Shown piece by piece: positions 1 through 64,000 of a DNA stretch of 64,000 bases (within the stretch, counting starts at the first letter, position 1; each line of letters opens with the position of its first letter). The stretch is from positions 45,492-109,491 of the forward strand of contig JADGKB010000043.1 of assembly GCA_027604185.1 (NCBI GenBank), read 5' to 3'. This DNA comes from Boothiomyces macroporosus (taxonomy: Eukaryota > Chytridiomycota > Chytridiomycetes > Rhizophydiales > Terramycetaceae). The translations under genes were made by a program, and so were the position numbers. The notes beneath the pieces are model-generated. The model saw only the letters and a program-made list of their open reading frames with translations. It was not told the origin of the DNA and made no database searches.

Positions 1-1252
1 TGGCATAAAAATTGAAATAACTCCTGAGGCAACCAAAGTATCCAAATTGTCAGTAGTGAAAAAGTCGTACTTTACTAGCCCGGCCAACAGATGGAGGATA
101 GTCAAATCAGTAACTTGAGAAAGCTAGTTTAGTGTGGAAAGTTACCATATTTCCTTCTTTATATGCAGAGATTCCTGCTTTTTGGGCGTGTAGCACTATC
201 GACACTAGCACATCGCGTTTCTTGGAGTCCTTTCTAGCATAGGTCCTGGTCAAATCGGAGGCGTAACCTGATTGTTAAGGCGAATCCACCTTTATAAGCC
301 CCTGCTGCATCGATTAAAATCAAATCCTTCTTTCCGATATGCTTGTAACCTGAATCTTGGGTTTCACCGGTTGGGTAGTGCAACACAGCAGAGTGACCTC
401 CAGCTCCAACAATTGGGTTATATCCTTGCAAACGGTTGTAGCAAAGAGCAGAGGTATATTCAAAGAAGGAAGCCAACACAGATTCTGTTACATCACGATC
501 ATACTTGATTCTACGCTCTGCCCATTTATGGGAAAATGCAGCAATTTTACTAGAAAACTTCAACATTTCGATTTCAGGTTTAGTTTTGATGAATCGAGAT
601 CTAATAAACGCTTGCTCAACATTTACATCATACTTGATTTCTGCTTTTGCTGCGGTCAATTGCTCTTGAATAGTCTTTGGAACTGGCTCGAGCGCATCTT
701 TGCTTGTTGACAACACAGTCTGTCCTATCAACAATTTTGGCAGTTCATCCATGAAAATTACTGATTGAACGTCGTATTGCTCTTTCAGAGCTTCTACATC
801 AGGTACCTGTCCTTCAAATGCAATTTCCCTTGCTGATTGAACAGGTAATACGATTGTCAAACAAACTGAATCGCACTTTGGATCAACAATCACAAGTGAC
901 TTTGCAATATAATATTCTCCGAGCACATACATGATGTTTGAGGTTTCTAAGTTAAATTATGAGTACGACGCCATTTCATCATTGCAGTATCCGATTCTGG
1001 TCTGTTTGGCTGAGGAGCAGAAGGCAGGATCACCAAATTTGAAGTAACGTCCTTCAGAATAGGTCCTAATCTGATTCTGTTTTCCGATACCGGTGAAACT
1101 TTTGGTTCGTCGTACGGACATTTCATTAATGGTGGTGCAATCACCACATCGCTTGGACGGGCATTATAAACAAACGCTCCTGCCAATACACACGCCAGCA
1201 AAATGTAAAATGGGAACTTGTATGAAGTTTTCTTGAACGGTTGCTTCTCCAT
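1..1252 (-). CDS. Membrane-anchored Xaa-Pro dipeptidase/aminopeptidase (M24B), 3' part beyond window
   Basis: Predicted metallopeptidase that cleaves next to proline. The first exon gives a cytosolic stub and one hydrophobic segment (about residues 13-30), so a signal anchor precedes the enzyme. The N-terminal domain follows, ending near SNIMYVLGEYY, which matches the start of prolidase-type proteins. The M24 fold starts at NPIVGAGGHSAVLHYP and carries the two metal aspartates in LILIDAAGAYKG and YASDLTRTY. The read leaves the window at GVISIFMP, just before the expected His of the HGLGH element. Introns lie at 947-966 (20 nt), 268-289 (22 nt) and 124-145 (22 nt); removing them restores each conserved junction. 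The ATG is at 1252, facing the divergent oxygenase gene. The remaining His and two Glu ligands cannot be seen. Dipeptidase and aminopeptidase P cannot be told apart here. Confidence 0.85.
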
Positions 1253-1599
1253 TTTGATTTCTCTTGCACCGCAAAAATTAAATTGACAAGGGGATGACTA
1301 CCGTGCATGAATCATCACAAAACAATCCGCCTGACTTGCGGAAGCTGTCAATTGAGATTAAAATGCGCTTCCGTTCCCATCAAAAGTATCCTTGCGATAT
1401 GAGCAAATACTAAAGACCCCACCACGATCCTTCTCTGGTGCAGAACCGCTTAGAGTGGTTTCCGCCGTTCTTTTACCAACGCACAGCAAATGAGCGGACT
1501 CTGCAACTCCCGCATGACTAACCCAAAGTAATCTTGAATGCGGGCCATGTGACGTTCAATTTAGCCTTCTGAAATTTTTTCACTATACTACAAGCGCAA
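1253..1599. other. Divergent intergenic region, 347 bp
   Basis: This stretch separates the start codons of the Xaa-Pro peptidase and the oxygenase. It must hold both promoters. I see no reading frame, RNA gene or clear TATA element in it. Confidence 0.5.
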
Positions 1600-2663
1600 A
1601 TGGTAGTTGTACTCGATTATAACAAGCTCGTGGATCCAGACTGTGATTTATATCAATACATTGATGATGCATTCGGAAATAAACCAGGAGCCCTTGGTGC
1701 ATGCTTTGTTTCCAATGTTCCTGGGTTTCCTGAATTGAGAGAAAAATGTCTTCGTTATGGATCCCAATTGGCAGCGTTATCTCAGTCTGAATTGGACTCC
1801 ATGGTTGATTTAGAATCGTGCTATATGTTTGGCTGGTCCCATGGAAAGGAAATTATGGTATTTAATTCATTTATCTGTAGAATGGAAAGGCCGATTTTGC
1901 CAAAGGCTCATTCTATTTCAATCCATTGCATGATGTGCCAGCATCTGAAGATCCTGAATTTGCTGCCAAGTTTGTAGAGTATGGCAGACCAAATATCTGG
2001 CCACCGTCCTTACCTCAAATGAAACATGATTTGATGGAGGTATTCTAGTGCTAATTCAAGTTGGGTCAACTTATTATTAAAGTTGGAAAATTGGTCGCCC
2101 TCCATTGCGACAAGTATATTAGCAAGAAACATCCTGATTTACCTCCAAACTTCTTGCAGTCCATGATTGAGCAGTCAATGATTCCAAAATCAAGACTGTT
2201 GCATTATTTCCCTATTTCAAAGGAAGATGCCGAACCAACACCTGATGGTAGCATGGATTCCTGGTGTGGTCTTCACATCGACCACTCTGTATTGACTGGT
2301 TTAACCAGTGCAATGTACAATGACGAAAGTGACCCATCATTCCCACAAGTTGATACTTCAAACAAGGACATCCAAGATGCTTTGAAAGATGCTGGGTTGT
2401 ATATCAAGGACAAGGATGAAAAATTTACTCAAGTCAAAATCCCAAAAGAATACTTGGCATTCCAAATTGGTGAAGCTGCACAAGTTGCCAGTAAGGAAGC
2501 ATTACTAGCAACTCCTCACTTGGTTCGTGGGGCAGCTTATCCCAACATGTCCAGAAATACATTGGCTCTATTCATGCAACCTAATGTTGACCAAGAATTG
2601 ATGCCAGGCTACACCTTCCATGACTTTACTAAAGATATTATGGCCAGACACTATGAACAATAA
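1600..2663 (+). CDS. 2-oxoglutarate/Fe(II) dioxygenase, isopenicillin N synthase-like
   Basis: A 339-residue protein of the 2OG-Fe(II) oxygenase superfamily. The jelly-roll core has an HxD iron motif in GLHIDHSVLTG. The distal half contains FQIGEAAQVASK, then ATPHLVR with the third iron ligand, and SRNTLALFMQP with the Arg/Ser pair expected to hold 2-oxoglutarate. The substrate is unknown; close-looking proteins are mostly uncharacterised. Two short introns, 1858-1880 (23 nt) and 2040-2060 (21 nt), join the three open segments. The stop TAA (2661-2663) lies inside an AATAAA at 2659-2664. A distant relative of the same superfamily is at 42848-43900. Confidence 0.8.
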
Positions 2664-3039: not shown

Positions 3040-3612
3040 ATGCCAAAGAAATCAGAGGCTGCTGCAAAAGGAATCAAGAAGCCATGCAATTCGTTTTTCA
3101 TGTATAGAAGAGGTAACCAGTTGCTGACGACAGACATGAAGCAGAAAATAGAGCAGGAATACAAGACCAGCAACAGTCACGAAGTATCAAAGATATGCTC
3201 AGCGCTTTGGTCCAAGGAACCGGCTCATGTTAAAGAGTACTATAGAAATATCAGTGTACAGGCGCATTTAGAACACAAGAAGCAGGTAAACAGTGCACTA
3301 ATGTAGTATCCTGATTTCGACTGGAACCCTCACAAGAATATGAAATTCAAACCAAAGAAGCCATCTTCAATGGATTCACTCAAATCAAATGATTCAGGAA
3401 TATATATCGAAGAAGGCGAACGCAAACACTCAATCTGCATGTCGGAAAATTCTTATGATATCACTGCTGTTTCCCCAGATATCTTGGAATGGACCCGCCT
3501 TGACCCTGATTTGATGAATTATCATTGCTACGACTTTCCCTCTCCAATAGCATCACCAGATTCCGTATTTTCAAGCCTTGAAATGGGATTTGCAAATGAC
3601 CTCACTTTATAA
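3040..3612 (+). CDS. HMG-box protein 1 (MATA_HMG type)
   Basis: A 176-residue DNA-binding protein with one N-terminal HMG box (about residues 10-80): KKPCNSFFMYRRDM, then EYKTSNSHEVSKICSALW and KEYYRNIS, ending in the YPDFDWNP motif usual for fungal MATA_HMG boxes. Such boxes occur in mating-type regulators of early fungi and Microsporidia, but family membership does not prove a mating role. The C-terminal tail is acidic and carries SPDILEWTRLD, a motif shared with the other three HMG proteins of this window. Introns are 3113-3133 and 3286-3306 (21 nt each). The first has no stop and keeps frame, so the open frame alone would wrongly include it. The ATG at 3040 is chosen because upstream in-frame codons contain no ATG. 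Confidence 0.85.
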
Positions 3613-4413: not shown

Positions 4414-5107
4414 ATGGCCCAACAAAAAGTAAAGAAACCAATGAATTCGTTCTTCTACTGTAATGACCAGTCTAATCTTAGATAGAAAAGATATGAAATT
4501 AAAGATTGAAAAAGAGTACCAAACAAGCAATAGCCACGAAGTTAGTCGTATCTGCTCAAGTTTGTGGGCGAAAGAATCAACTAAAGTGAAAGAATACTAC
4601 AGAAATATATCAATTGAAGCTCATAATCTGCATAAGCAGCTCTACCCTGAATTTGATTGGAATCCTCATAAGAATGTCAAACCAGCAAAGCCTGCCAAAG
4701 TTACAAAAAAGAAGTCTAGAAAACGGGAAAATTCTATTGCTTCGAATGCTAGCTTTGAAGTAAAGCCAAAGTCAGATTCTAAAGCAGAGGAAATGCCTTC
4801 ATCTATATCATTGGATATCCTACAGTTTACCAATTTGGACCAGTATTCGTTCAACTCGTATAATAGCAATCCTCAGTTCACTATTGTTCCTCAAAACAAT
4901 TTCCAGTCGTTTCAGCCAATGGCCCCACCTTTACCGCCTTTGCAGTTGATTATTCCACCGGCTACCCCAAAAACAAATCTTCCTTATCCAATTTCACCAA
5001 CGTTCACCTTACCTCCTAGCCCAAAGGAAAGACTACCGCCTATCGATAGCGGATACAACTACTTTGATTCATTTATTTTAGACCCAACAGTTAAAGCTGA
5101 TATGTAA
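4414..5107 (+). CDS. HMG-box protein 2 (MATA_HMG type)
   Basis: A 223-residue HMG-box protein, the closest paralogue of the gene at 3040. The box spans about residues 6-75 (KKPMNSFFYYRKDM, EYQTSNSHEVSRICSSLW, EYYRNIS, YPEFDWNPHKN). A lysine-rich stretch follows that could be a nuclear signal, then SLDILQFTNLD, the tail motif common to this family, and a proline-rich C terminus. A 22-nt intron at 4460-4481 interrupts the codon of the second Tyr of FFYY; unspliced, the frame stops at once. The stop is followed by an overlapping AATAAA (5107-5112). Target genes are unknown. Confidence 0.85.
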
Positions 5108-5648: not shown

Positions 5649-8309
5649 AGTAGGATTTCTCTAAAATAGTGCCATTCAATGTCGTTCACCCTCAAATACT
5701 GATCGAAGGATTTCCGCTGTCAATAACTTGCGTTGATCACTTGGGACATAAGATGTTTATTGGCACAGAGGAAGGATCGATACTGGAATACAACATAGAA
5801 GAAGACCCCTTCACGATCACGCTCTCGCAAGTATACAAGCAAGTAATTACTAAAATGTCGAAATTGCTGATTTTGGAGAAATCTCGATCGCTAGCGATTC
5901 TTTCTGAAGGTCTCGTTTCAATTAGCGATTATTCTCAGCCAACTCTTAATTTGGTTCTACTTCCGCGAATTAAAGGAATTACATGTATAGAGCGATCGCT
6001 ATTTCAAAACAACAATAGATCTGATACTCTTGCAGTTGGAGTTAAACGGGGAGTGATTATATACTCGATTTCACCGTGTGAAGCAATAGAAAATGAATTA
6101 ATCCCGCTTCCGTATACCCCAACTTCATTTCAATTCATTGAGGAAACTAAAATTATAGCCTCAACAAGACGAGGAATTTATTTGGTTGACACTGCTGCAA
6201 GAAGTCATCAAGAAGTATTCAGTGTGAACGAGTCTTCACTTACGAGTGCAATGGCCAAATCGCATTACATGGCAGCACATGTTGCAAGTGTTCCAAAGTT
6301 GAATTCTGCATCAAACGAAGTAATTTTCAATCCAAATGAAGACTTTGTCTACTGTACAAAAGACACGCAATGCTACAAAGTCAATATGCAAACAAAGAAA
6401 TCGGAAGCACTATTTCAGTGGACAGCGCAACCGTCTCATATAACAGTGGATGACTATTATACAGTTGCTTTGATTGAATCAATCATAGAGATTAGAAGTT
6501 TGAAAACTGGTTCAATTCTTCAGCAGTTTGCGATAGGACAAGGAACTATTATGAATGTCGGGGAACTGATTTACATTGCTAGTGCGAAAAACGTGTGGAG
6601 ACTACTTCCGTTGGATTTTGATGAGCAAATTGATGAACTATTAGCTCAAAATCGATTTGAAGATGCCGAAGCATTCATCAACGAACTGGATTTTGCAACT
6701 GTCCAAGAAAAGCAATCTAACGTTATTAAAGTTCGTGGAGTTTATGCACAGTATCTGTTTAACGTCAAAAAACAGTACGCAGAGGCTGTTTCGGTTTTAG
6801 AGAAACTAAATGCCTCTCCTGTTGATGTTTTGGGTCTTTATCCAGATATAATGGACAATGCACCAGATTACCGGTCGGACAAAGAAGCATTACACATATT
6901 GGGACTTTACCTTTCAAAAGAAAGAGTAAAGTTGATCACTTATAGAAACGAATTGACAATACAAATGGATCAAAAAGCAAAAAGTGCAATCAACAAGAGT
7001 CCTTATTTTGATACTTCCATTGAAGATGCACTTTCAGACTGCAAGTGTTTGCTAGAGTTTGTGGAGACGGCTCTATTGCAAGTTTATCTTACCACAAACA
7101 GTCCATTGTTGGGATCTCTATTAAGAGTGGAAAACTCTTGCAACTACGAGAGAACAGTGGCACTATTGATTCGATTTAAAGTACTTTGCTTCTAATGTAG
7201 AAAAACAATGAACTGATTGATTTTTATAAAGCGAAAGGGCAGCACCAAAAGGCCTTGACATTCATGAAGATGTAACCCAAGTTTAATTGTAGGGTTTCCG
7301 AGAACAATGACTATGAGCATATGGTATCGTATTTACAACATTTGGATCTAAATAAGCATGTCGATACGGTTTTGGAATTTGCCAAATATCCACTTGAAAC
7401 TAATCCTGCACAAGGCATAAAAATATTCACCGAAAACTACCAACAAGTAAGAATGTACTAATTCCAGATTACTTCAGAAAACAAAATGAAGATATTTGAA
7501 TTTCTGGACAAACTTTCATCAGAATTGGGAATCCAGTACCTTGAAAACCTGGTGAATAACCATTTCGACAATGATGTAAATATCAATACCAAGTTGTTGC
7601 TAAAGTATCTTCAAATTTGTATGCAACAGCCCAAAAACCAGACTGCTCGACAGAACTTTGAGAACTTTATCTATTACAATAATTATTACAGAGAAACGGA
7701 TATTCTAGATGCACTTCCAAAACAGAAATTCCTAATAGAGCAGACACATCTGTTAAGTAGACTACATCGATACGAAGAAGCGCTTGAAATATTCATTTAT
7801 GATATCCAAGACTTTAAAATGGCTGAAGATTTCTGTATCCGGCATTACAAACACAACTCTTCACTTTCCAATACCTTGTTCACATACTTGTATCGACTGT
7901 ATATACAATCAGAAAATAAGAATGACCAAGAAACGATCAAATTCCTAAATAGCCATGGATATAAATTGGATGCTGGAAAGGTATTTCAAACTAATTCAGA
8001 CAATAACCTCACTTGAATCAAATGTTAAATTGGTAACTTTGAGAGACTTTCTCATAAAAAATACTAAATCCACAGTGTCATCTTTATACCGCAATTTAAT
8101 GATTGAAAGCTTACTGAAAGTGCTGATAATCAAGGTAAGAGCTATTAACACAGATCAAGGACGATTTGCTAGAAGGCCAAAATAAATCCTTCAACATTAA
8201 TGAACAGAGTATGTGCAGACTGTGCTTGAAGAGGCTCAGTAGTATTATTTTCACTGTATTTCCTGATGGATCATTAGCGCATAGTTATTGTGCAGCAAGG
8301 AGTCAGTAA
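5649..8309 (+). CDS. VPS39: VPS39/Vam6-like HOPS tethering subunit
   Basis: An 846-residue protein expected in the HOPS complex, tethering late endosomes to the vacuole. The N-terminal half is a CNH-type beta propeller (about residues 10-300; LAVGVKRGVIIY, IIASTRRGIYLVD). Helical repeats follow (FEDAEAFINELDF). The C terminus has the zinc-binding end typical of Vps39: CRLCLKRL, then FPDGSLAHSYC. Six introns: 5650-5669, 7181-7200, 7272-7292, 7447-7467, 7981-7999 and 8135-8153. The reading frame has no ATG before residue 28. If the first 20-nt intron is removed, A5649 joins TG5670-5671 to make the start codon, followed by PFNVVH. This split ATG is inferred but fits the domain start. Confidence 0.85.
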
Positions 8310-10174: not shown

Positions 10175-11049
10175 CTAAGAGTGCGCCATTACGCTAGTAT
10201 CCTTGGAACTGTCAACCGATTTTTCCAAAGACACTCGTCGAATCTGCCGGAAAATGATTGACATTACTAAAATATGCCCCATACCGACAGTGGCCCCAAT
10301 CGCACTACATTAATATCAACTTACGCTAGCCCAGATGCATTTGAGCCACCAATAAACCATGAAATGATCCAAATGACAAACGCAGTCCAGTCAATTACAA
10401 TACCCAACAACACCAATCGAAATAGAATATGCATTTCAACGGTATTTGCGGACGAATTGTTTCTGAAATGCTTATGCTTTACCAGTTCTCTAGAGATGTA
10501 AATTGCATGAAAGTTTTCATACAAGATTGCGCTGAATGCAAAGAGCTCGTAGCCATAAACATACCATTGCTCCAAAAATAACGATCGAGGCTGTCCAATC
10601 GATCCAATGATACCATAAAGCCCAGCCATACACACGGTGTGGTAAACTGCATATCCGATTTGTAGTTTAGTAATTATTTCCTTGTTTAAATAATGACTTC
10701 CAAAAACGAACGATTTCAAGATATCCATTTGGCCCATTACAGTCAAGAACATTCCCAGTTCACCTAAAAGGTTGAATAGCCAACTTAGAAACGGAACGCA
10801 GTAAGGAGAGTAGTTGACAAACTGGAGTACTATCCAGATAAAGTACAAAATGTTTGTGCAAGCAATGAAATTGAACGCTTTTGCTTTGAGTCCTAACCTC
10901 CCGGTGAATAGCAGACCAAGTACCGTTATTGAACCTACCAGATATATGCAACTGATAATCAGAGCAATAATGTTGATCGCTTGCGTATAATCTAGCCCTG
11001 AAGTAGGGTTTCCGTTCATATCATAGCCGACAGTGAATGCAGACATCAA
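10175..11049 (-). CDS. Seven-transmembrane protein B (tandem paralogue)
   Basis: A 284-residue paralogue of the gene at 8809-9719, in the same orientation, with its stop about 455 bp upstream of that gene's ATG. Seven hydrophobic segments are visible, with conserved NYSPYCVPFL after TM2, GQMDILKSF after TM3, WYVYGYELF in TM5 and a basic IIFRQIRRV after TM7. Only one intron is present (10305-10324, 20 nt), at the site matching the last intron of paralogue A. The tail is shorter and Ser-rich. An AATAAA follows the stop. Function unknown; a tandem duplication with differing intron number is seen directly. Confidence 0.75.
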
Positions 11050-11110: not shown

Positions 11111-13481
11111 TTACAAAGATATATTGTTAAATATCGATTTAAGGTTCAAATTTACAAAGTCAGACACATTTTCTCTTTGAATGAAGTGTAGAGTATCCAT
11201 TAGCAAAATACTCTTTGGGATTTGAGAAGCATGTTCACTATATTAGCGAAAATTACCTCTTGGATAATCGCTGGATTATCACAATCAGATTTTCAATTGT
11301 TTTGATTGATCCTGACTTTATCGTTGCTGCAAAAATATCCAGAACTTGGGTAGAAGCACACTTTGTATAAAAAGCATCAAAGTTAGAAAAACTTTACCTT
11401 CAGATATCAGAGTTAGCATGACAGACGAAACTAGCATTACAATTGCATCTCTAGTAGGGGTTCTAGTTAGAATTTCAATTAATGTTTCTAATCCGCCTAC
11501 TTCTAGAACCATACTTCTCGATTTGATAGAAGTAGATAAATGCCCTAAAAGACCATCTAGCATTGCTTCAACAACCTCGAATTGAGTAACACTAGCAAGA
11601 ACAATAAGATATGTATATAAGATTGCTCTTTCCGATTTTTGGGATTCCAGTGTCATGTTTCTCGTTTGAAGTACAGTCAGGGAAGAATATACTAATGCAG
11701 CTATGTTGTGTTGCTATCTTTAACTATTTAATACCTCTGCAGCTGGCAAATTTGTTTTGATTCCGTCATAAATCAACTCCAGGTACATTTCTTCTATATG
11801 CTGCAAAGTGTTTTTCTTGTGGGACGGTGTATCAGGGGATATCCTGCAGGCCATTTCTAGGGTTTCAAAAGATCCAGTAATTGCATCGATAAACATATTT
11901 TGTAATTTCTTTTCCCCTGATATTTTCGACTTTGTAGATCGCAAATTTAGTAGATATTGAATTAATGAAAGCATGCTTGCATTTAATGATATATCTGGAA
12001 GATTAGTTGCATTTCTGTTGAAATACTCATTTCGATGTTGACCAAGGGTAACTTCTTCTGTCTGAGCTGTAGAATTTACAGCCTCATATCTGGAATTGCT
12101 TTTAGAAATTAGTTTCTTCATCTGCGAAAACATATCTCTATCACTATTTTCAACAGTTTGAGCAGCATTTGAACTACCGACTCTAACGTGAGATTTCAGC
12201 CTCTCATTCCTTTCCTTTGCAAGTTTCAAGTTTGCAGATAGTTCCTCCAATTTCAAATCCTTTTCTTCCATTTCTGACAAACATCTCTTGTTCTGGATTA
12301 AAAGCAATTACTTGATCACGCAGAGACCTGTTTGTGTTTACCATTTCTTTCAGCGCATTCTGCAGACGCTTGTTTTCCTTGTTCAGCTGTTCAATTGCTT
12401 CTTCATACTTTGTAATTATTTTTTCAGTATCTGAGCGGAATGCCTTTTCTTTTTGTTTCAAAGCAGCATTAACCATAATATCCAAATCCTTATTCAGATT
12501 CTTTTCTCTTTGTTCCAATGCCGCTTGGCTAATTCTGATTGTTTCCTTTAATTTATTCAATTCCTTTGTCTCTTTTTGCAACTTTTCGTTTCTGGCTTTC
12601 AGATCCTCTGACAAATCACAGAGTTCCTTGTGTACTTTGACATACATTTCCTTTTCTGATTTGGTCTGAGAACTCTTTAGTTTTTTGGAACTGAAGTCAG
12701 CGGCGGTTTACCTAACAGAGTCATAGATTGATTCTTTAAGATCGTATGGTGGAGAAGATTCTGATATATTCCTGGAATATCCTTCCAATATTTCGTCGTT
12801 TAAAAAGTCAAGTGAAGATTCCTTTTTCACTTCATTTCTCACTTGCTTGACTTCCTTTGCCGCTTCTATTTTGTTGGAATTGGCAAATGCCTTGCTATAA
12901 GACCCAGTCATGTTAATCGATTCTTTTGGAATGGGATCGAACTCAGAGAGGGACATTGCAGGAGACGGCGCCTTCTCCTTTTCTATTTTGGGGCGCAATC
13001 CTTTCATTTGTTCCATTACTGAATTTATAACCGGGATATCTCATTACCAATCAATTACCTTGTTTTGGAATCGCATAATTGTTTTCCAGCATTTTAGACA
13101 GTGACTTTTTCAATTGCGCATCAGATTTTGTGATTTTTGGATTGGTTTTGCTTGAGATTATTTCCTCCTTTAAATGTCTTGATGCATGACCATGCTCGTG
13201 TTCCTTGTCATAGTGGAAATGACAGTTATTAAATGTAAGTGGTCGCTCCCGTAGAACCGGACTGTCGATAATGTTGAGTAATTCGTCATCAGTATCAGCA
13301 CTGTAAACTATTGTCTCTGTTTTCTTTTTGTGTCTCCTTGGTTCGGATGCATCTGGTTTTAAATCCTCCGGCAACTTTCTCCAGTCCAAACTAACAGATC
13401 CCTACAGTTATCGGAAATTACGTTGATTATTTGCTCTGAATTTCCTAATAGTTCATACACTGAGGAATCACTGTTTGGCAT
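11111..13481 (-). CDS. Large coiled-coil protein with C-terminal helical-repeat domain
   Basis: About 743 residues from the first ATG. The N-terminal third is polar, with a His-rich patch (HFHYDKEHEHGHASRH). The middle is a long coiled coil rich in Glu/Lys (12204-12650 region). The last 250 residues are hydrophobic helices resembling armadillo/HEAT repeats (VEAMLDGLLGHLS, GGLETLIEILTRTPTRDA). Introns: 13402-13421, 13040-13058, 12691-12711, 12293-12311, 11714-11734, 11378-11397 and 11238-11256. The sixth best fits a 20-nt intron ending in TG, giving LISEDAFYTKCAST in frame. The open frame extends upstream to 13568 without an ATG, so a further 5' exon is possible. I do not recognise the family; a cytoskeletal or meiotic scaffold is only a guess. 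Confidence 0.65.
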
Positions 13482-13970: not shown

Positions 13971-14776
13971 ATGCAAGTCATTGATCGCTTATTGGAATAT
14001 CCAACCTACAGACCTGAAGGAGTAATCAATTTCACAAACAACAACTGGCAGATTCCCTTCACTGCAGTAAGCACCTACCTTGCATTCTGTTACTTTGGCA
14101 AGATATACATGAAAGATAGAAAACCATTCAATCTCAAGCTATCTCTTGCTCTCTGGAACTCTTTCTTGGCTGTGTTTAGTATCGCCGGTGCATACATTAC
14201 TGTACCAGTGATCTTGCGCAATTACAGATCACTGCCATTTGAGAACACTGTTTGTGATCGTCCTCATGATACATGGGCATCAGGAACAGTAGGGTTCTGG
14301 GTAATGCTATTCTCTCTGAGCAAAATTCCTGAATTAATCGACACTGTGTTTATCGTTTTGCGCAAGAAACCATTGATTTTCTTACATTGGTATCACCATG
14401 CTACCGTAATGATGTATTCTATACTAACTATAGGTATGGATGGCATGCATACTCGCATTTAGCTGCTGCTGGTTTGTATTTTGTTGCGATGAATTACTCG
14501 GTTCATGCGGTCATGTACACCTACTATGCTCTTCAAGCTGCTGGATTATGCCCTAGATGGTTCCCATCTTACATTATTACAATCAGTCAAATTCTGCAAA
14601 TGGCTGTTGGAACTTATGTCTGTGTTTACACTTGGTATTACATGCTACAAGGCAAAACTTGTTACAATGATTTATCTGGAATGATTTACGGAGCATTAAT
14701 GTACATTTCGTACTTTGCTTTGTTTGTTAATTTCGCAATCCAGCGATTTGTTTTGAAAAAGAAAAAGACTCAATAA
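13971..14776 (+). CDS. ELO-family very long chain fatty acid elongase
   Basis: A 261-residue multi-pass ER enzyme (3-ketoacyl-CoA synthase). It has the family signature KIPELIDTVFIVLRKK, the histidine box HWYHH, then MNYSVHAVMYTYYAL. About seven TM segments are present and the C terminus is lysine-rich (KKKKTQ), consistent with ER retention. One 20-nt intron at 14414-14433 falls just after the His box, between HATVM and MYGWHAYSH. The stop overlaps AATAAA (14772-14777). It converges with the next gene, leaving 16 bp between stops. Fatty acid chain-length preference cannot be told. Confidence 0.93.
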
Positions 14777-14792
14777 ATAGTATCAGCATTCT

Positions 14793-16802: not shown

Positions 16803-18785
<1,983 letters not shown>

Positions 18786-40203: not shown

Positions 40204-40317
40204 AGAAATTCATTAAAAATGTTTTCCGAGTTCCTTGAGTTGCATTAAGTCTGCGGCACACATGGCCCGCTGTTTTACATTTGACGTTTAAATACAAGTA
40301 GATTTTACAAAGGGTAA

Positions 40318-41100: not shown

Positions 41101-41344
41101 ATTGATCCCTCAGATTCTTGACAACGTTTGAAGCGATATAAATGCAGGTTTGAAGTAGGGAATATCGAGTAATTTTTGAATCTCAATGGCTCAATGGCAT
41201 TTTTCAGCAGATCTTTTGCTTTTGTCAATGACCCTGAATCACAGGACTGTGTCAAAATGAAATCCTTTCCGACAAAAGTATGGTGTGCCGGATTACGGTC
41301 CGTTATTAATCTATTAAATACAACACGACCTCTCCAGATAATAA

Positions 41345-43900: not shown

Positions 43901-43927
43901 GAAAAAAGATGAAAAATAAGTGCCTGT

Positions 43928-52200: not shown

Positions 52201-54462
52201 ACTGCTCAAGGCATTGAGCACATCATTTACCCAATCTGCTAAAAACTTTTTTTCGTCTCCAATTCGCCTAGCCATGGTGGTAACATTGCTTGAAAAGGTT
52301 TTCATCGTCTGTATCACATCTTTAGCATAAAACTCCACGCCATCCATTTCAGTTTTTAAAATCTTTTTCCAATTTGCTAAATTAGCCAATATCCTATTGC
52401 ACAGCAAAAACACCGACAGCCAAAATGTCTTGGCATTTGAATCGATTCGAATTTCTTTGTTTGGGAATATCAGCTTGAAGTATGCAGACAACACCACCAT
52501 AAATGGTTTTATAGTTGCGTGGACTATAAAACCACCTTCAATATTGCGATCCAGCTTTCGTACCAGATCCAATATCACAGATGTATCAATTTTACCCTGA
52601 CTGATAAAAGTTGATAGTGAATATTCAAATGAATCCTGGCCAGTAATGTGTTTCAACAATCCTTTAATCTTGGATTGTATTCCACGATCATTAAATGTAA
52701 GTAATTCCAAAGTTGTCTTCAAGTCAAAGATAATATCATTGTTAATCAAGTTTGCAATATTTGTAGATACAATTCGGAGTGAGTCCCAGTATCTAGCGCT
52801 TTTAGCAATATTGGCTTGTTTTCCTGTGTAACACAATCTACTAAATACATTCAATAATTCCTCCACGTGATCATTAGGAATATTCCAGTCACTTAATCCA
52901 CTCCATAAATCTGAATGTTCCACAATGCTGGTTTTTTCTGAATTTTCCACCTTGTTTTTATACAATGCCAGTAAATCTTTTTTGATGATTTGATAAAATA
53001 TTGGATACAGTGATTTCATGACTGGTTTGTATTTCTTACTCTGAAAACAGTATAGTATCGCGGCTTGGGTATCAATTGGGCAATAGCTCGACTTTGATAT
53101 TGAAATTAGTTTATCATACAGTATTTGGAGAAATTCGCTGGACCATGATGAGGAAAGGACAAGCAACTTTTTCACCACCCCCTCCAACCAATAGTTATCC
53201 GAAACGATTGCACAGATATTGGTTATCCAAGATAGAGATAGAGTTCTTCTCTTGTATAGCAATTCGTCGTTTTCGTTCTCTACTGTAATCATTTCAAACA
53301 TTGGTGAGTTGTAAATTGAATCGACCAGATCGTAACCGATTTCTGTTGAAAACTTTGTTCTAACCCAATTACATGGTGTATTTTTCAATATAAATTCGAA
53401 AAAGGCCAGTCTTTCCCACAGATTTCCAGTTTCGTTTTTCAAAAAGGAAGTAATAATTAGCAGGTCCGGATCGGTAGTTGAAAGTGAAAGATATTCTGAT
53501 AAATCACTGTCATTTATACTTCCCAAGATTGTTGTCAAAGGTAGCCATGCGATTGATTTGTCTCTAAATACGTTAAATGGTGGCAGTTGATAATTAATAT
53601 TATCCATGGGCAATTTGTAAAGTTCTTTTACCATCTTGAACAGAAAAGAAAGTACTGGCACAACATCCTTTTTATCTTTTATAGTGTACTCTGAAGTGGT
53701 TGTACTATAGCATTTCAAAGCCCATTCTCTTACTACCTGATCTTTGTGTATTGCTAGGTACAAAAAGCCTGGGTTAGAACTACATACTCGTTTTAATTGG
53801 ACCTTTTAACAAGAGATTTTTGAACTGGACAGCATGATTCATCACTTTGACAAATAAACCATCCAAAATCTCGTTAGTAAGAATCAAAGGCTCCACAAGA
53901 ACTTCATGAATAATAGGAAACGAATGGTGACGGATTTGTTTGTGCTTTTCCGGTGTTTCAGCAGCTTCAAAGCTAGATATCATTCTACGTAAATTGGTAA
54001 CATACACTTTCATAAAGTCCCTCTGTCTTTCAAAGTTGAATTCATTCACGATATCCTGTCTATGGTTAAAACAAAAACAACATTATATTTACATTTTCCT
54101 GACCGAATATTGGAGGATAAATTTCCAGAAACTGTTTCCAGCAAGCTATATTAAAAAAACCAAACCATGAAATGCGGTAATACAATTTGGACACATTGAT
54201 AAATTCATCCGCAATACAGAGTACATCTTTTGAATAGCTTGATCTGGATTCTTGAATGAAAATAATTCAAACAACTCGCATACATCCGGAAATTCATGTA
54301 GAAAATGTTGGTCTGTCAATGACAGAATGTAGTAACAGCAATTTTCCAAGAATTCTATATTATTTTGATTTTACTGATTCTTAATTCGTTATCGTATGGC
54401 TGTCTAGTGTGCTGCCGGAGACTAATTTGAAATTCTTCCTTGGTAACCTTTGGTGCAGACAT
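49270..54462 (-). CDS. SEN1: SEN1/senataxin-type superfamily 1 helicase
   Basis: A 1,676-residue helicase for transcription termination and R-loop resolution. The N-terminal 850 residues are alpha-helical, as in Sen1 (ACWKQFLEIYPPIFGQ, VREWALKCY). A disordered linker follows. The helicase core has LIQGPPGTGKTRTLLAI (motif I), LICAPSNAAIDEI (Ia), IIDEACQAVE (II), LVGDPQQLPPT (III), LKTQYRMHPEI (IV), DTVDGFQGQEKDIIILSCVR-like (V) and NVALTRARY (VI). Eight introns: 54355-54374, 54146-54165, 54060-54081, 53769-53787, 50779-50798, 50480-50500, 49539-49558, 49417-49436. The intron at 50779 splits the Walker A glycine. It supports a nuclear role with RNA polymerase II. Confidence 0.93.
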
Positions 54463-54573: not shown

Positions 54574-55643
54574 ATGACCATTGGGCGGTTGTCAAATATT
54601 CCAATTGCGGATATGGACGAATTTGTACTTTCATTGGAGAGGAAGCCAACAGAGCAAGTAGACTCACTGTTCAAGACAAAGCACCCAGAGATAAACCAGG
54701 AATGGGATATGATTTCTTATTATGAGCAGTTGCTTAAAAGCAGCGAACTAACGAAAAGTCGATTGTATGAACAAATAGAGCAAAACAGATATACAATTAG
54801 GGATCATATGAATAAGAATATAAAATTACAAGAGCAGAATGAAGAGTTGCTACTGGAAAAACAGAAACTTAAAGAGCAAGTGTTCAAATTAACAAAAATA
54901 CTGGAAGGGAAATCAAAAAATATGCTGGAGCTGGAATCCAAACTGAAAACAACTACGGATTCAAATTCAAAGTTGGAGGAGGAAAATACGTTATTGAACA
55001 GTCAATTAAAGATAGCAACAGACAAAGTAGATTCGTTGAATCTGCAGATTACAGAAATACCTAAATCCAACTACCAAGTGTGCCCTCCATGGGAATTAAA
55101 TCCCAAAGACTGCTTGAACTATGGATACAATAATGAAAAGCCTCAGGGTATTGATGATAATGTATGGAAGGTGTTTAACCAATATCAAAAAAATGATTTG
55201 CTGGATTTCCACTCTCTACACTCTGCTCTTAATACCCAAGTTATCTGGCCAGAGTTTTCTTTGAAAACAATGTGGATTGTTCTTCATCAGGCTGATCAAA
55301 CAGGCCAATTTGTAGATATCAACGGATTCAACAAGTTGTGGTTGTTTGTTCATTCCATGCATGTGCTTGTGCCGAAATCAAACAATATTCTTGTATCTGA
55401 TGCGGTACGTATTATTAAGGGATATGGCTTTAAAAGTATTTGGATCAACAGAGTGATCAATAGAACCATAGGCAATCCAGGTAATTCCAGATTAATATAG
55501 AATATTTAACATGGGACCAACTTCTTCAAGTCTCGTCAATATTATTATGTTGGTGGGAAGTAATCAATACAAAGATATCCAATGGAGTCGCTATATTTGA
55601 ATATGATGAGCTAATGGGTATTGCAACAAAGCTATTATTTTAA
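54574..55643 (+). CDS. Coiled-coil plus penta-EF-hand-like protein 1
   Basis: A 349-residue protein. Residues about 45-175 are a coiled coil. The C-terminal half resembles a penta-EF-hand domain: DNVWKVFNQYQKNDLLDFHS, then WPEFSLKTMWIVLHQAD and INGFNKLWLFVHSMH, ending EYLTWDQLLQVSS. Most calcium ligands are replaced, so it may not bind calcium. A 20-nt intron lies at 55481-55500. It is the most diverged of three paralogues (also 55992 and 57199). Confidence 0.7.
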
Positions 55644-55991: not shown

Positions 55992-57071
55992 ATGCAATCG
56001 CTAGTTAATACCATTCCTACAGATTCTCTTTTCAGCAATGAAGAAGGTAACTAAAGTTTGACGTTAGAGCTCTATGAAATCCCAAAAGTCTATTCATCTA
56101 TCAAAGACATGCAACGCAACAAGACCCTCCAAAGAATAAAATTGAACAAATCACAAACTAATGATGCTCCAAAAGATTCCATTGAATACTACAAGCAAGA
56201 GCTAGAGAAAGAAAAGGCTAGCCATGTCGAAACATTGTTGCTCCTCCAAAAGATGAAGAACGAAATCAAGAATCTCAAAGAAACTAAAGAGCTTGCTACA
56301 CCATCCGACTCATCACAAGAAACAATAGTAGAACAGCTCCAAGACCAAGTAAATGACTTGTACGATTATATCGATGAACTTGAATTCAAACAAGAAGCAT
56401 TAATCCTCGAAAACAGAAACTTGACTACCGAATTAGAAGAAAAAAACGCAGAGATCGATTATTTGGAGCAAGAACTTGAAACTACAAAACTATCATTCGA
56501 TCCAAACGTTTGCTCATATCCAAAGAACGAAAAACCTCGTACTCCAATTAAACTCTTGTGTCCTGCAAAGTATAACCACCAAATCTGGGAAATATTTGTG
56601 AAAAACGATACAACTGAAAGCGGTAAATTGGATATTGGCGAATTAAAGTCTGCAATTAGTCAAGGTAAATGGCCTGCTCTGTCTCTCTTGACCTGTAAAT
56701 ACTTGGCTAGACATATAACAAAGGGAGGTGATTCCGTCAATCCTGAACAATTCCTAGAAATATGGCGATTCGTCTCTATCTGCAAGGCGGTATTTTCTCG
56801 TCATGACTCTTTGAGAAACTCCAATACTGAATGGGGACATGTCCCTTCCTATTCTCTGATGGAAGTCTTTGAAGAATTGGAAATACCAATCAGTCGAGCA
56901 GTACTAGACACTGCAGTCAAGAACTTTAGGGCACCAGATCACTTATTTACATGGGATGAATTCATTCAGTTCATTTCGATGGTTCGAATGTGGAATATGG
57001 AATTGAAAAACATGAAAATCAATCCTCATCATGTTGAGCACTTTATGTCTGTACTTTCTTGCTCTCTTTAA
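55992..57071 (+). CDS. Coiled-coil plus penta-EF-hand-like protein 2
   Basis: A 352-residue paralogue. The coiled coil spans about residues 55-155. The PEF-like part starts PAKYNHQIWEIFVKNDTTES with GKLDIGELKSAI (a degenerate first EF loop), then GKWPALSLLTCKYLARHI and EIWRFVSICKAVFSRHD, ending LFTWDEFIQFISMVRMWNME. A 21-nt intron at 56048-56068 sits within the first 20 codons. Codon usage looks more regular (many ATC, AAC, CTC) than in neighbours, suggesting high expression. A calcium or membrane-repair role is only inferred from the PEF fold. Confidence 0.75.
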
Positions 57072-57198: not shown

Positions 57199-58692
57199 TC
57201 AAATGCATTTAGCAACCATATTCATAAACTGTTCATACAAAATGGTAATTGCTCTGTCACCGTCAAGATCAACTCTATCAAACTCCATCATCCAAATTCT
57301 GACATTTGCATGCAAGCAGACAAATTCATCCCATGTGTATCTCATATCTAATCTTAAATATCGATTACCTGGAGTTGTCTTGTACTTTATCAAGAGCACA
57401 TTTGCTTTCTTTGGCAGTTTGATTCCAAGATCGGCTAATGACTGGGTTAAAGTTTCTGGAGTTGAATATCCCCAGATTGTTGGAGATATCCTCTTGACAT
57501 CGTATTTTTCAAACATTTTTTTACATTGCTCAACGAAATGCCACATGTTTGTGAATGCATCTGCTGGAATATAATCACCATTTCCATCATAGTTTCTAAT
57601 TAGCATAATACAGGTTTTGATTGAGAGTGGTGGCCAATGACCTTTCGCCAAAGCTTCACAAAGTTCTCCAGCATCTAAACGATATGTACCAAGCTTATCT
57701 GAAGCTAAATAAATTGGCCATAGATTCTGATCAAAGCCTTGTGGTTGGTGCAATTTCACTCCATTTCCACCTGTATTTTTGGTATATGCTACAGGGATAT
57801 TAGCATTTGATGGAGTTGGCGCAGAAGAATTTGTTCGTTGTCTCATATTTGCATTGTGCAGTTCGTTCTTTAGCCGAGCGACTTCCTTTTCGTACTTGTC
57901 TTGCAAAAACGCAGTCGAATTGTCAGCTTGTAAAACAGATATCTGATCTAGAAGATTGGAATTCTCTGATTTTAATTTTCCAACGTCTTTTTGATATTTT
58001 TCCTGCAATAGATTTAGAGAATTGTCATTCTTGTGGATATCAAGCTCAGCTTCCAAGCTTTGCACTTTATTGTGCAATTGTTCAATTTCAGCTTCCATTT
58101 TCTTTTGCAATTGCGGGTCAATGGTTGGGACAGATGGTAATGGTCTGGCATTAAGTTGCTTTTGCAATGACATTGCTTTTTCATCCAACAAGCGGTTCGC
58201 ATAGCGTTCCTGTTCTAGGATGGCGTTCAGTCTATCAATTTCTTGTTGGTTTGAGGTCAGTAACTGGGTTTGTGCAGTGAGCTCCTGAAGATAGGCATCC
58301 ATTTGTTGGTTGGCGTAGCGCTCGTCCTGCAACTGGTTTTGCAAGTCTCTAATGATGCTGTCGTTATTGTTCGTAGCATCCATTAGCTGCTTTCTTTCCC
58401 TAATTCTATCACTCTGCTCCTTCTCCAATAACCTGGATAAATCATTCTTTTTTTTCTCCAGAGCAGTCAAAAGCGAATCTTTGGTAACGCAAATCATTTG
58501 CAAATCTTCGCATTGCTTTTTCCATTGATTAATTTCTTGCTCCAATTTGGATGTTTTAGTAACATGGTCAATTTCCATATTTTGGAGGCGGTTGAGAGTC
58601 GCTTGATCTAGCCCTTGATTATTCAATGCTCCGTAACCATATGAATTTTGAGTAGTTGCTCTTGGGGGAACATTAGGTCGGTGGTTTGACAT
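57199..58692 (-). CDS. Coiled-coil plus penta-EF-hand-like protein 3
   Basis: A 497-residue, intronless paralogue in the opposite orientation. The N terminus is Asn/Pro/Gly-rich (SNHRPNVPPRATTQNSYGYG), as in classical PEF proteins. A long coiled coil (about 35-285) follows, then the PEF-like domain: QGFDQNLWPIYLASDKLGTY, RLDAGELCEAL, GHWPPLSIKTCIMLIRNYDG, NMWHFVEQCKKMFEKYD and RYTWDEFVCLHANVRIWMME. The loop NYDGNGDYI keeps more acidic ligands than in the other copies. An AATAAA overlaps the end. It converges with paralogue 2. Confidence 0.78.
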   Translation of the reverse strand: MSNHRPNVPPRATTQNSYGYGALNNQGLDQATLNRLQNMEIDHVTKTSKLEQEINQWKKQCEDLQMICVTKDSLLTALEKKKNDLSRLLEKEQSDRIRERKQLMDATNNNDSIIRDLQNQLQDERYANQQMDAYLQELTAQTQLLTSNQQEIDRLNAILEQERYANRLLDEKAMSLQKQLNARPLPSVPTIDPQLQKKMEAEIEQLHNKVQSLEAELDIHKNDNSLNLLQEKYQKDVGKLKSENSNLLDQISVLQADNSTAFLQDKYEKEVARLKNELHNANMRQRTNSSAPTPSNANIPVAYTKNTGGNGVKLHQPQGFDQNLWPIYLASDKLGTYRLDAGELCEALAKGHWPPLSIKTCIMLIRNYDGNGDYIPADAFTNMWHFVEQCKKMFEKYDVKRISPTIWGYSTPETLTQSLADLGIKLPKKANVLLIKYKTTPGNRYLRLDMRYTWDEFVCLHANVRIWMMEFDRVDLDGDRAITILYEQFMNMVAKCI

Positions 58693-59091: not shown

Positions 59092-60402
59092 ATGTCCAGT
59101 AAAAGAAGGAGATATTCCAGCTCACCTTCATACCACGGGAGGAAAAGAAAGACGGATTACTACTATACTGAACCAAGGAGAAGCACCAGGAAAACGAGTA
59201 ATTACTATTTAATATTGATTCCATTTACAGATACAGGGAAGAAAGAGATAAAAGCTACGACAGACAAGACCGAATAGATGATGATGACGGCCACCTGATA
59301 ATAAGGAATAATACCAGATTGTCGCCGAGATGTAATATTATCTTATATAGATACCATTATTCAACTACTGGGACAAGGAACATTTGGGAAAGTAGTGGAG
59401 GCATACGATAACCAAACGCAAACCAAATGCGCCATCAAAATCATCAAATCTGTGCAAAAGTATATAGATGCGTCCAAGATTGAGATTCGAGTGTTGAAAA
59501 AGATACTGGAACGAGATCCCACTGGATCAAAGTAATTCTTTACTAATCCGACAATGTATCGCTTTGCTGGATAACTTTGTATATTGTAACCATGTTTGTA
59601 TGGTGTTTGGTCTCCTGTCGCAGAGCTTATTTGACTATTTCCAACATGTAAAGTTTATGCCTTTTTCCTTGCGAGAAATACAGTCCTTTGCCAAACAGCT
59701 ACTGACCTCTGTTGCCTTTTTGCATGAAAACGGCTTTGTTCATACTGATTTAAAGCCAGGTAATAGATTCTAATATAGAAAACTTGATGCTGGTCGATAA
59801 CGAGACTGTTCAAGTTCCCGTTGCGCACTCAAAGAATAGATCTAGAAAGATGCTCAAGAGCACGAAAATCATACTGATTGATTTTGGAAGTACAGTGTTT
59901 GAAAAGGATTATCACTCTCAAATAGTGAGTACTAGACATTACAGGGCTCCAGAGATTATTTTGGGATTAGGTTGGTCTTATCCGTGCGACATATGGTCGA
60001 TAGGATGTATATTAGTAGAGTTGTACACTGGCGCAGCGTTATTTCAAACGCATGAAAATTTGGAGCACTTGAAAATGATGGAGGTTGTTCTTGGACCATT
60101 TCCAGCATCAATAACTAGCAATATACCGTAATATTGATTAACAACAGCGGACAAGCGTCAGAATACTTTTCAAAAGGAAAGGTGCGGTTTCCTGCTCACG
60201 ATACTGAAGAAGCAAGCGAAGCTTTTGTAGCAGCAATGAGCTCTATAGAGGTAGATCTAACTAACAGCAGGAAATAATTAGACCGAGGAACGCTTTCGAA
60301 GAAATGTTTTTGGTATTCATCAAGCATTTACTCCAATATAATCCAAGGGAAAGATGCACTGCTCATGAAGCGCTTCAAATGTCTTTTATCACATTTAAAT
60401 AA
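59092..60402 (+). CDS. LAMMER/CLK dual-specificity kinase
   Basis: A 397-residue kinase of the family that phosphorylates SR splicing factors. The N terminus is Arg/Ser/Tyr-rich. The domain opens DDGHLIIRNNTRLSPRY, then LLGQGTFGKVVEA, CAIKIIKSVQKYIDASKIEI, FLHENGFVHTDLKPEN, IDFGSTVFE and STRHYRAPEIILGLGW. The LAMMER signature appears as EHLKMMEVVLG (usual EHLAMMERILG). Introns: 59198-59217, 59332-59350, 59532-59550, 59760-59778, 60128-60147, 60251-60270. The first needs a TG 3' end (joining to NSIYRYREERDK) and the third a CG 3' end (joining SK to QCIALLDNF). The total then divides by three. The stop overlaps AATAAA. Confidence 0.88.
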
Positions 60403-60552
60403 ACAGAATTGAAGAATCGCGATTGTATAGATATTCGGGTTCAAGATCCACAAATAACAATCACATGTAGATATATTAATTCGATAAGATTGGTTACTCT
60501 CTGAACTTTGTTCAGACGCTTAGTAAGCAATGCCATCCTGAAGATTTTTTTC

Positions 60553-61593: not shown

Positions 61594-61616
61594 AAGTAAT
61601 GTACAATATATTAGGT

Positions 61617-62117: not shown

Positions 62118-62158
62118 GCACAGAGTCGGGACCTTTACGTGAAATACATCTTGTTTAT

Positions 62159-62967
62159 TCACACCTCAAACGTTTCATTATTAGTATTCTGATTGGCTTT
62201 TCTTCTTCGCCATTTCTCTTCCTCCAGCGATTTAACCAGCTGGTTAATATGGATAATTTTGGATCTCTTTTCTAAAAACTTCATCCTCTCGGCATGATTG
62301 ATTTGTTCTTGAGGAGTCATGTCTCCTTTAAACGGGAGTCTAAAGTTAATAAATTGGATGTGATAATCCAGTTTTTGCTTTAGGTCTTGTTGATTCTTGG
62401 TGTTAGGATAAGATACCTTTGTGGATGAAAGCGTTTCCATCTTCTTTACTATAGTTAATTAGATTTACAGCATACACCGAGTTCTGAAGCTGAACTGGTG
62501 ATTGGAGTAGAAGGCAACGACGGTGCTTCAAATGCAATCTTTGTGCTGTGCAATAGCCGTCGTGGGTTGACAGTTGGCTTTGAGATATTCGTTTGTGTAG
62601 CCAAGTTAATGACAGGTAACGACTTTGATTTGATAGGATGGGGATTCGATGTTTTAGATTTGATATTGGAGGTGGAAACCGATTTCTTCTTTTTCGACTT
62701 TCTCTTTGGTTTATTTATTGAAAGATCATTCAGTGATTTTACCAGTTTTGTTTCCTTTAATAATTCCGTGAAAAACTGCTTCCCGCTAGCCATTCCCTGC
62801 AAGTTGTCACCGCCAATTGTATTTGATCGATACAATCCTGCTGCACTGGGTAATCCTGCTGATGCTGGCAACCTCTCACCAGAACCATTGCTTACTAAAT
62901 GTAATTGGCTTCCTTTTATAACAGAATTCAATTTGTTGAGGCTCTCTATAGTACTGTTTATTGACAT
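62159..62967 (-). CDS. Basic protein of unknown function, spliced across an apparent 14-bp gap
   Basis: A 262-residue protein joined by a 20-nt intron (62449-62468). The N-terminal exon has a helix (STIESLNKLNSVIKG), a Ser/Gly-rich linker and a basic patch (KPKRKSKKKKS). The C-terminal exon is helical and charged (HAERMKFLEKRSKIIHIN, SLEEEKWRRRKANQN). Read unspliced, these look like two genes with a stop and ATG 14 bases apart; the sequence between fits the local intron consensus and joins VCL to KKMETLSS in frame. The stop TGA overlaps AATAAA. A nuclear or cytoskeletal role is possible, but unproven. Confidence 0.65.
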
Positions 62968-63055
62968 TTGGTTGATGACGAACACTTTACTGTCAATTAA
63001 AAAGTGACGCAAGACCAGCCAGCATCAACCCTAGTTCGCGCCTTGCATTTTTTCA

Positions 63056-64000
63056 ATGATGGCAAATAACTTGAACTACACTTTAATAGAGAAAAATATC
63101 CTGAAGCCTGACAATGACGACCGGGAATATGTCGCAATTAGACTTGAAAATGAATTGGAGGTTTTGCTGATATCAGACCCAAAAACGGATAAATCATCGG
63201 CAGCACTGGATGTTCATGTAGGACACTTGAGCGACCCCGACGATGTGGCCGGACTAGCGCACTTTTGTGAGCATTTGCTGTTTATGGGGACGGAAAAAGT
63301 AATTGGCGCTAATCCTAGTATCCAGAGGAGAGTGAATACAGAAAAGTAGTTTGCACTAACAGCAGTTCCTGGCAGAGCACGGCGGACACTCGAATGCGTT
63401 CACTTCGAGCGACCACACCAGTACGAGTGGCTAATATAGACTATTACTTTGAAATATCGTCGGAATACTTGGAGGGAGCGCTGGACCGATTCTCCAGCTT
63501 CTTCAAGTGTCCCTTGTTCCTGGACAGCTGCACAGAGCGGGAAATGCTAGCAGTGGATTCTGGTACACGACCTCTTACAGTAGAACACAAAAAGAACCTG
63601 CAATCCGATACGTGGAGGGGATACCAGCTGCTAAAGGACTTGTCGTCGCTAGCGCATCCATTCCGAAAGTTTGGCACAGGTAGGCGGTTGCTAAGGTCAG
63701 GGAATCTGGAGACGCTGAGAGACATACCGCTCAGAAAGGGACTGGATGTGCGACAGGTGCTGCTGGATTTTCACGACACATACTACAGCTCAAACATAAT
63801 GAAACTGGTGATACTGGGAAAAGAGTCCGTGGGCGAACTTACAGACCTTGCAATCAGGATGTTTTCCGGAATCAAAAACAAGAAAATCGAACCGCCATCA
63901 TTTCCAGCGCACCCATACACTTCAAATGAGTTGATGGTAGGTCTTTTGACTAATTCAGAAACTTGTAAAAATCAAACCCATAAAAGAAAGAAGAAATCTG
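63056..64000 (+). CDS. IDE: Insulysin/STE23-type M16A metallopeptidase, 3' part beyond window
   Basis: The N-terminal third of an insulin-degrading-enzyme-like peptidase. It shows the start motif SDPKTDKSSAALDVHVGHLS, the inverted zinc motif HFCEH in GLAHFCEHLLFMGTEKYP, then EHGGHSNAFTSSDHTNYYFE, the third zinc ligand in VDSEHKKNLQSD, and FRKFGTGN. Introns: 63299-63318, 63346-63365, 63421-63439, 63563-63583, 63680-63700, 63937-63958, an unusually dense set. The exons are GC-richer than elsewhere in the window. In yeast the homologue matures a-factor; here that is only an analogy. The start is at 63056, with a second ATG directly after. Confidence 0.93.

Follow-up and report, generated by a model that had tools for sequence, protein, structure and literature searches.

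How small an intron can be the norm in a fungal genome, and how a spliceosome would read it, is the question raised by a stretch of 64,000 nucleotides (nt) from Boothiomyces macroporosus (contig JADGKB010000043.1, positions 45,492 to 109,491; hereafter the window), in which nearly all predicted introns are 19-22 nt long. The source organism is a true fungus of the Terramycetaceae (Rhizophydiales, Chytridiomycota), and the assembly under study comprises 15.2 Mb in 216 contigs. The HIS4 protein of the window is 99% identical to that of Boothiomyces sp. JEL0838, 92% to that of JEL0866 and 86% to that of Terramyces JEL0728, its CDC16 and malic enzyme are 98% and 100% identical to public B. macroporosus proteins, and a 16-base pattern for 18S gave no match. 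We consider it very probable that almost all introns of B. macroporosus are real U2-type spliceosomal introns of 19-22 nt, a judgement based on the DNA sequence and on predicted proteins, the public proteins used for comparison being predictions likewise.

Genes were predicted on both strands by a finder trained on 127 long open frames, and its models cover introns of up to 150 nt within coding regions. In an unbiased run on the window plus 20 stretches of 10 kb each, every GT..AG segment of 12-150 nt carried one flat cost, free of any length or motif preference, and seven other dinucleotide pairs served as controls. Among these eight pairs, only GT-AG peaks at 19-22 nt, with 124 of 281 introns in this range, versus 7-18 of 244-295 in the controls; a smaller unbiased run gave the same picture, with 66 of 136 versus 4-11 in five controls. 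A YTRAY element (Y, pyrimidine; R, purine) lies near the 3′ end of 89 of these 124 introns and of 0-2 in the controls, although this motif played no part in the choice of introns. The same class appears when motifs are counted directly. Pairs of GTA with TAAYN0-4AG number 20, 36, 17 and 8 at 19, 20, 21 and 22 nt in the window, versus 3.5-4.3 in 20 dinucleotide shuffles, and in 212.7 kb elsewhere in the assembly pairs with Y before AG number 62, 94, 50 and 23 at these lengths and 10.0 on average at 101-300 nt; minor bumps without neighbours occur at 12 nt (25, in the 212.7 kb) and at 30 nt (11, in the window). Across the whole assembly, GTAN{6,8}YTRAYN{2,3}YAG is found 5452 times and its reversed pattern 958 times, and a pattern for 21-25 nt 3708 versus 1280 times.

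A refined run with learned donor, branch and acceptor weights, in which GC donors were allowed and lengths of 16-26 nt favoured, was applied to 301.7 kb, a non-random sample made up of the window, the 20 largest contigs and loci around splicing genes. It yielded 200 gene models, 148 of them with introns, and 462 introns, of which 429 are 19-22 nt, 6 are 16-18 nt, 12 are 23-26 nt and 15 are longer; 4 of the 462 are GC-AG. Most introns thus lie within a few nucleotides of one length near 15-25 nt, as in genomes known for ultrashort introns. The GT-AG (or GC-AG) ends and a branch element near the 3′ end that can pair with U2 are both those of U2-type introns, and the AT-AC pair, with 18 of 292 at 19-22 nt and no peak, gives no sign of the U12-type AT-AC subtype. 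Extrapolated from the 447 introns of 16-26 nt, the assembly would contain about 22,500, a figure that inherits the non-random sampling. In the window, the second model has 38 gene models with a total of 85 introns (81 of 19-22 nt, one of 17, one of 23 and two long ones of 86 and 117 nt), and the first model 98 introns, 81 at 19-22 nt. The original prediction, made from the letters of the window, is therefore upheld in its main claim of a 19-22 nt norm, and its count of about 105 introns is of the same order as 85 and 98. Its longest well-supported intron of 23 nt also fits, the 86- and 117-nt predictions having no homology support, as do its GTA start and its YTAAY-like element close to the 3′ end. 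Its remark that every complete gene model sums to a multiple of three holds in the present models too, but this is true by construction and is therefore weak evidence.

The splicing of several genes in the window could be checked by homology, and their introns are as follows.

27435-27453, 27774-27793, 28205-28223, 28688-28707 and 28817-28836, plus strand: malic enzyme, 19, 20, 19, 20 and 20 nt (public protein, solved structures).
24650-24670 and 25084-25104, minus strand: HIS4, 21 nt each (homologues, HisD score).
32434-32452, 32734-32754, 32956-32975, 33102-33121, 33275-33293, 33414-33433 and 33570-33589, plus strand: CDC16, 19-21 nt (public model, relatives).
17927-17946, 18132-18151, 18262-18281, 18530-18551 (22 nt, GC-AG) and 18601-18620, minus strand: MARK-like kinase (solved MARK1, second run).
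48294-48313, 48561-48581 and 48881-48900, plus strand: acylaminoacyl peptidase (a solved enzyme aligns in two stretches, query 79-152 and 146-651).
4460-4481, plus strand: HMG-box gene, 22 nt (HMG_box score).
3113-3133 and 3286-3306, plus strand: HMG-box gene (HMG_box 47.3 bits spliced, gene models).
30992-31013, minus strand: HMG-box gene, 22 nt (HMG_box 41.8 bits spliced).
63299-63318, 63346-63362 (17 nt, the shortest) and 63421-63439, plus strand: insulinase-family gene cut by the window end (Peptidase_M16 136.2 bits spliced, gene models).

The malic enzyme model equals the public B. macroporosus protein over 601 of 601 residues, and solved malic enzymes align to its residues 43-596; if retained, four of its five introns would bring in an in-frame stop and the remaining one a frameshift. 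Alignments cross the two HIS4 junctions without a gap in 8 and 7 of 8 homologues, and splicing raises the HisD score from 236.4 to 492.5 bits (cut-off 243.8). Likewise, HMG_box rises from 21.8 to 40.5 bits (cut-off 25.4) on removal of the intron at 4460-4481, and U2AF_lg, found elsewhere in the genome, from 230.7 bits in the unspliced genome search to 342.7 bits (cut-off 310.3). For CDC16, five of the seven junctions are shared with the public B. macroporosus model. In the kinase, a 52-nt intron of the first model proved false, as it left a gap of 10 residues against MARK1 that the DNA does encode; the 22-nt GC-AG intron at 18530-18551, just upstream of these residues and chosen by the run that allowed GC donors, restores the alignment with MARK.

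Apart from their splicing, four HMG-box genes lie within 33 kb, at 3040-3612, 4414-5107, 30413-31172 (minus strand) and 35095-35700, with scores of 40.5-60.1 bits and a similar stretch of 80 residues at the start. The group is reminiscent of the MATA-HMG families that are expanded in some early fungi.

The 447 introns of 16-26 nt from the refined run share a compact anatomy. GTA opens 82 of the 85 introns in the window and 430 of the 462 over the whole sample, and the donor reads AAG/GTA(A)(T)(T), with A at +3 in 94%, T at +5 in 46% and G at +5 in only 15%; the average match to the complement of U1 is 6.2 of 11 positions. TTAAT, CTAAT, TTAAC or CTAAC forms the branch motif in 293 of the 447. 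Thirteen or 14 nt precede the predicted branch A in 374 and five or six nt follow it in 379, a spacing referred to below as the ruler. These introns have no space for a pyrimidine tract, an extra AG follows the predicted branch in 23, and their content of G and C is 29%. Of the called introns of 19-21 nt with ruler geometry, a score based on the ruler retrieves 90%, along with 23 of 1741 look-alikes from the same 164 genes, a result that is partly circular because the finder uses similar weights.

Traces of such introns are visible in relatives, which were compared through extra residues in public proteins. The CDC16 proteins of JEL0838 and JEL0866 carry seven extra residues exactly at the 21-nt second CDC16 intron of the window, and the Kappamyces HIS4 protein carries eight at the second HIS4 intron. 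When back-translated, these inserts are compatible with the retention of introns that carry GTA, TRAY and AG and measure 21, 21 and 24 nt, with rulers of 14/6, 14/6 and 16/7, the ruler at the CDC16 site being 14/6 in B. macroporosus itself. Chance fits to this relaxed pattern amount to 6 of 9122 and 1 of 9110 scanned windows, scans that include the inserts themselves. The relaxation from YTRAY to TRAY with GTA was made post hoc, the intron of B. macroporosus at that site having ATAAC; under strict YTRAY one of the three inserts fits, that of Kappamyces. The fitting inserts in sister strains and in Kappamyces are a lead, short of proof, that very short introns probably occur outside the Terramycetaceae as well. 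Public gene models of Rhizophydiales would accordingly carry predictable errors, in which short introns are given the wrong size, are translated into false residues or are passed over along with their exons.

The original prediction had further held that the spliceosome must be adapted to such introns and had proposed looking for changes in U1, U2 and U2AF. This part is not borne out by the components found. The 5′ end of the U1 small nuclear RNA (snRNA), AUACUUACCUG, the branch recognition stretch of U2 (GUAGUA) and the ACAGAGA of U6 are all canonical and unchanged. U2 is present as two diverged copies scoring 142.2 and 135.4 bits, and U6 scores 62.2 bits. The U2 genes lie at G000:C80:60682-60874 and C178:9607-9797, and their branch recognition stretches are identical. 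U2AF65, of 451 residues, looks complete: its start is RS-rich, it has three RRM stretches, and one of its segments contains W and, as we take it, resembles the U2AF35-binding motif. SF1 also looks complete, with its helix-hairpin, KH domain and two zinc knuckles. PWI domains gave four matches in the genome, and RED_N and RED_C none, a search in which no positive control was scored and which does not imply absence.

How could such a spliceosome handle an intron of about 20 nt? There is so little room in it that the 5′ site, branch site and 3′ AG can hardly be read as three widely spaced signals, and we see roughly an even chance that the intron is taken as one composite unit. In such a mechanism, SF1 and U2AF, and then U2, would hold the 3′ half of the intron, and U1, and then U6, would hold its 5′ end, the sites being engaged in succession and not side by side. 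The helices formed by U2 with the branch and by U6 with the 5′ site would come to lie back to back, the gap of 13-14 nt being about the length taken by these contacts themselves. The RNA pulled by Prp2 and Prp16 would lie partly in the downstream exon, and the fixed spacing would supply part of the specificity missing from the weak 5′ site with its scarce G at +5. In human extracts, Smu1 and RED are reported to be necessary when the 5′ site and the branch site are close (PMC6692369). A wider version of the proposal is tentative and, on balance, doubtful: in the Terramycetaceae, and perhaps in all Rhizophydiales, an otherwise complete fungal spliceosome, possibly without RED, may treat the 20-nt intron as one rigid unit whose ruler is fixed at 13-14 nt, A and 5-6 nt, an independent fungal solution to minimal-intron splicing.

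Several observations weigh against the main reading, that these segments are U2-type introns of 19-22 nt. The position of the branch A is a motif-based prediction confined to the final 14 nt of each intron, and the ruler leans on that prediction. U1 scores 68.8 bits, slightly below the Rfam cut-off of 69.5, and U5 gave no match in the genome search, in which no positive control was scored and from which absence does not follow. In the predicted sense exons of the 164 genes (31 sources), intron look-alikes of five patterns show no clear depletion, with ratios of 0.81-1.04 in sense and 1.06-1.41 in antisense, so that the cost expected of such look-alikes is invisible. At the two CDC16 sites that differ from the public model, the latter has introns of 29 and 37 nt versus 20 and 19 nt here, as read from the DNA by the author. 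The residues that the present model encodes at the first site are found in JEL0838 and Terramyces; at the second, JEL0838, JEL0866 and Terramyces all skip the exon, so these relatives cannot decide.

Two side observations adjoin these points. For CDC16 (32107-34132), the DNA together with relatives or the repeat pattern favours 20 and 19 nt over the public 29 and 37. Among look-alikes in sense exons, those of 21 nt exceed expectation for the five patterns, at 11 versus 2.2 (the strictest), 7 versus 3.8, 10 versus 6.8, 30 versus 26.0 and 157 versus 121.3; this surplus indicates that the finder probably misses some stop-free introns of a length divisible by three.

The best surviving alternative to recognition as one unit is that no special recognition exists: an ordinary fungal spliceosome would tolerate 20-nt introns, deletion bias would have driven them to a physical floor, and the ruler would be the sum of minimal signals. 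We put this slightly below an even chance, nearly as likely as the one-unit mechanism. The canonical U1, U2 and U6 motifs and the seemingly complete U2AF65 and SF1 agree with it, and for mikrocytids a neutral account of this kind, deletion bias halted by a splicing threshold, has been offered (PMC10245619). However, for the human B complex to keep its structure, the 5′ site and the branch site are estimated to have to lie at least 52 nt apart (PMC6692369), versus 13-14 nt here, and the reduced G at +5 makes the 5′ site weak as well, so that the signals are not merely packed together.

Much less probable, though deserving some weight, is a mixed population in which a sizeable and understated class of introns above 30 nt exists beside the short ones. 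With the refined weights but no length preference, 512 introns are called, 388 of 19-22 nt and 107 above 26 nt, compared with 15 of 462 when the preference is applied. Yet in the unbiased run GT-AG introns of 27-150 nt number 133, below every one of the seven controls (206-258), and YTRAY lies near the end of 20 of 126 introns of 30-150 nt, a share inside that of the controls, which runs from 13 of 220 to 57 of 201. This lack of excess over the controls suggests that the longer introns of the refined finder are noise. Moreover, the sole such case in the window with a solved homologue, the kinase, resolved to 22 nt, and the motif histogram, judged by its mean, has no second peak up to 300 nt.

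It is very improbable that insertion or deletion errors in the assembly, or over-flexible splicing by the finder, mimic 20-nt introns. Open frames do guide the finder in its choice of introns, and at some sites two public models depart from ours. Nevertheless, the control pairs show no peak, the motif peak is independent of gene models, GTA, YTRAY and AG are not expected from random errors, and the proteins continue without a break across these junctions in independent assemblies (JEL0838, JEL0866, Terramyces and others). Removal of the segments from the genome itself, or their bypass in translation, can be practically dismissed, for although their size alone resembles the internal eliminated sequences of ciliates, they have GT-AG ends and a branch-like element that matches U2 by complementarity, the fungus possesses U1, U2 and U6, and the segments are annotated as introns in public gene models.

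The remaining introns predicted in the window, supported by gene models, are given below.

124-145, 268-289 and 947-966, minus strand: M24 peptidase (Peptidase_M24 also matched in the unspliced frame).
1858-1880 (23 nt, the longest of the window's short introns) and 2040-2060, plus strand: introns.
7181-7200, 7272-7292, 7447-7467 and 7981-7999, plus strand: introns, in the gene taken for VPS39 in the original prediction.
10305-10324, 11238-11256, 11714-11734, 12293-12311, 12691-12711, 13040-13058 and 13402-13421, minus strand: introns.
14414-14433, plus strand, and 15062-15081, minus strand: introns.
19136-19154, 19388-19407, 19458-19479, 19657-19676, 20074-20092 and 20935-20954, plus strand: introns.
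21665-21683, 21996-22015 and 22346-22365, minus strand: introns.
23052-23070, 23322-23342, 23457-23476, 23852-23871 and 24287-24306, plus strand: introns.
35924-35944, 36264-36285, 36925-36944 and 37312-37332, minus strand: introns.
43125-43145, 43320-43338, 43722-43740 and 43803-43821, minus strand: introns.
46050-46068, plus strand: intron of 19 nt.
49417-49436, 49539-49558, 50480-50500, 50779-50798 and 53769-53787, minus strand: SEN1-like gene, the 5′ end of which is provisional.
55481-55500 and 56047-56067, plus strand, and 57348-57368, minus strand: introns.
59760-59778, 60128-60147 and 60251-60270, plus strand: introns.
62396-62416 and 62449-62468, minus strand: introns.

The predicted introns of 86 nt (11312-11397, minus strand) and 117 nt (43877-43993, minus strand) are unsupported, the latter probably joining two genes. 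In the SEN1-like gene, whose SEN1_barrel scores 25.1 bits in the unspliced frame, slightly below the cut-off of 27, two long predictions look, by eye, like introns of 20-22 nt with GTT donors; other long predictions in the window may bridge neighbouring genes. Between 54574 and 58692 lie three adjacent coiled-coil genes with C-terminal parts similar by eye, the first without a Pfam match and the second with a weak zf-C4H2 match of 20.9 bits in its main unspliced frame (cut-off 34.5). Three look-alike membrane-protein genes, judged by eye, stand in a row at 39391-42118, and no introns are predicted in them in the second model.

Ultrashort introns as the norm have so far been associated with relict nuclei, ciliates and reduced parasites, and to these a true fungus that keeps U1, U2, U6, U2AF65 and SF1 would now be added. 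No report of ultrashort introns in a chytrid stood among the papers listed in searches of the open-licence literature, which leaves out most subscription papers, and as far as that literature goes, this is the first description of such introns as the norm in a true fungus. That no fungus-like genome was known for them, as had been claimed, holds for the norm in that literature, but some of these introns were already implicit in public gene models; indeed, the five malic enzyme introns are exact in one of them, and the class is therefore unreported, within the searches made, rather than unseen. The question how the two sites can lie 13-14 nt apart, set against the 52 estimated for the human B complex, comes close to the organisms whose splicing is best understood, and a length near the shortest known in any organism makes this fungus a place to ask how small an intron the spliceosome can handle.

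The precedents named at the outset, nucleomorphs, Stentor and Paramecium, are apt, and the list lacked the mikrocytids. First, chlorarachniophyte nucleomorphs have more than 800 introns of 18-21 nt in about 300 genes (PMC10245619), alike in their numbers and their nearly identical, narrow length range, but in a relict nucleus of a few hundred genes, whereas the present genome is a fungal one of 15.2 Mb. Second, mikrocytids have 224 introns, of 16-17 nt, and a strongly reduced spliceosome (PMC10245619); their introns are likewise uniform, ultrashort and equipped with shared motifs, whereas B. macroporosus has hundreds in 0.3 Mb and keeps U2AF65, SF1 and PWI proteins. Third, yeasts of the Yarrowia type have constrained 3′ ends in intron-poor genomes (PMC2483917); these too are fungi with a fixed short distance from branch to AG and no pyrimidine tract, but their introns are rather long and few, whereas here the introns are many and the distance from the 5′ site to the branch is fixed as well. 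Fourth, introns of Paramecium have a median of 24-25 nt, and range over 15-100 nt in P. bursaria (PMC12862383); the intron-rich genome with almost exclusively very short introns is shared, but those of Paramecium are longer and vary more widely, and SMU1 and RBM17 are reported there. Finally, the heterotrich ciliate Stentor, with introns of 15-16 nt (PMC10245619; PMC9505925), is also free-living and keeps most spliceosomal proteins; its introns are shorter, it belongs to another kingdom-level lineage, and it has been proposed that clashes are avoided there through parts of branching factors that are not conserved (PMC9505925). Since ciliates likewise retain most splicing proteins, B. macroporosus would be a further independent case of ultrashort introns, and not the first with rich machinery.

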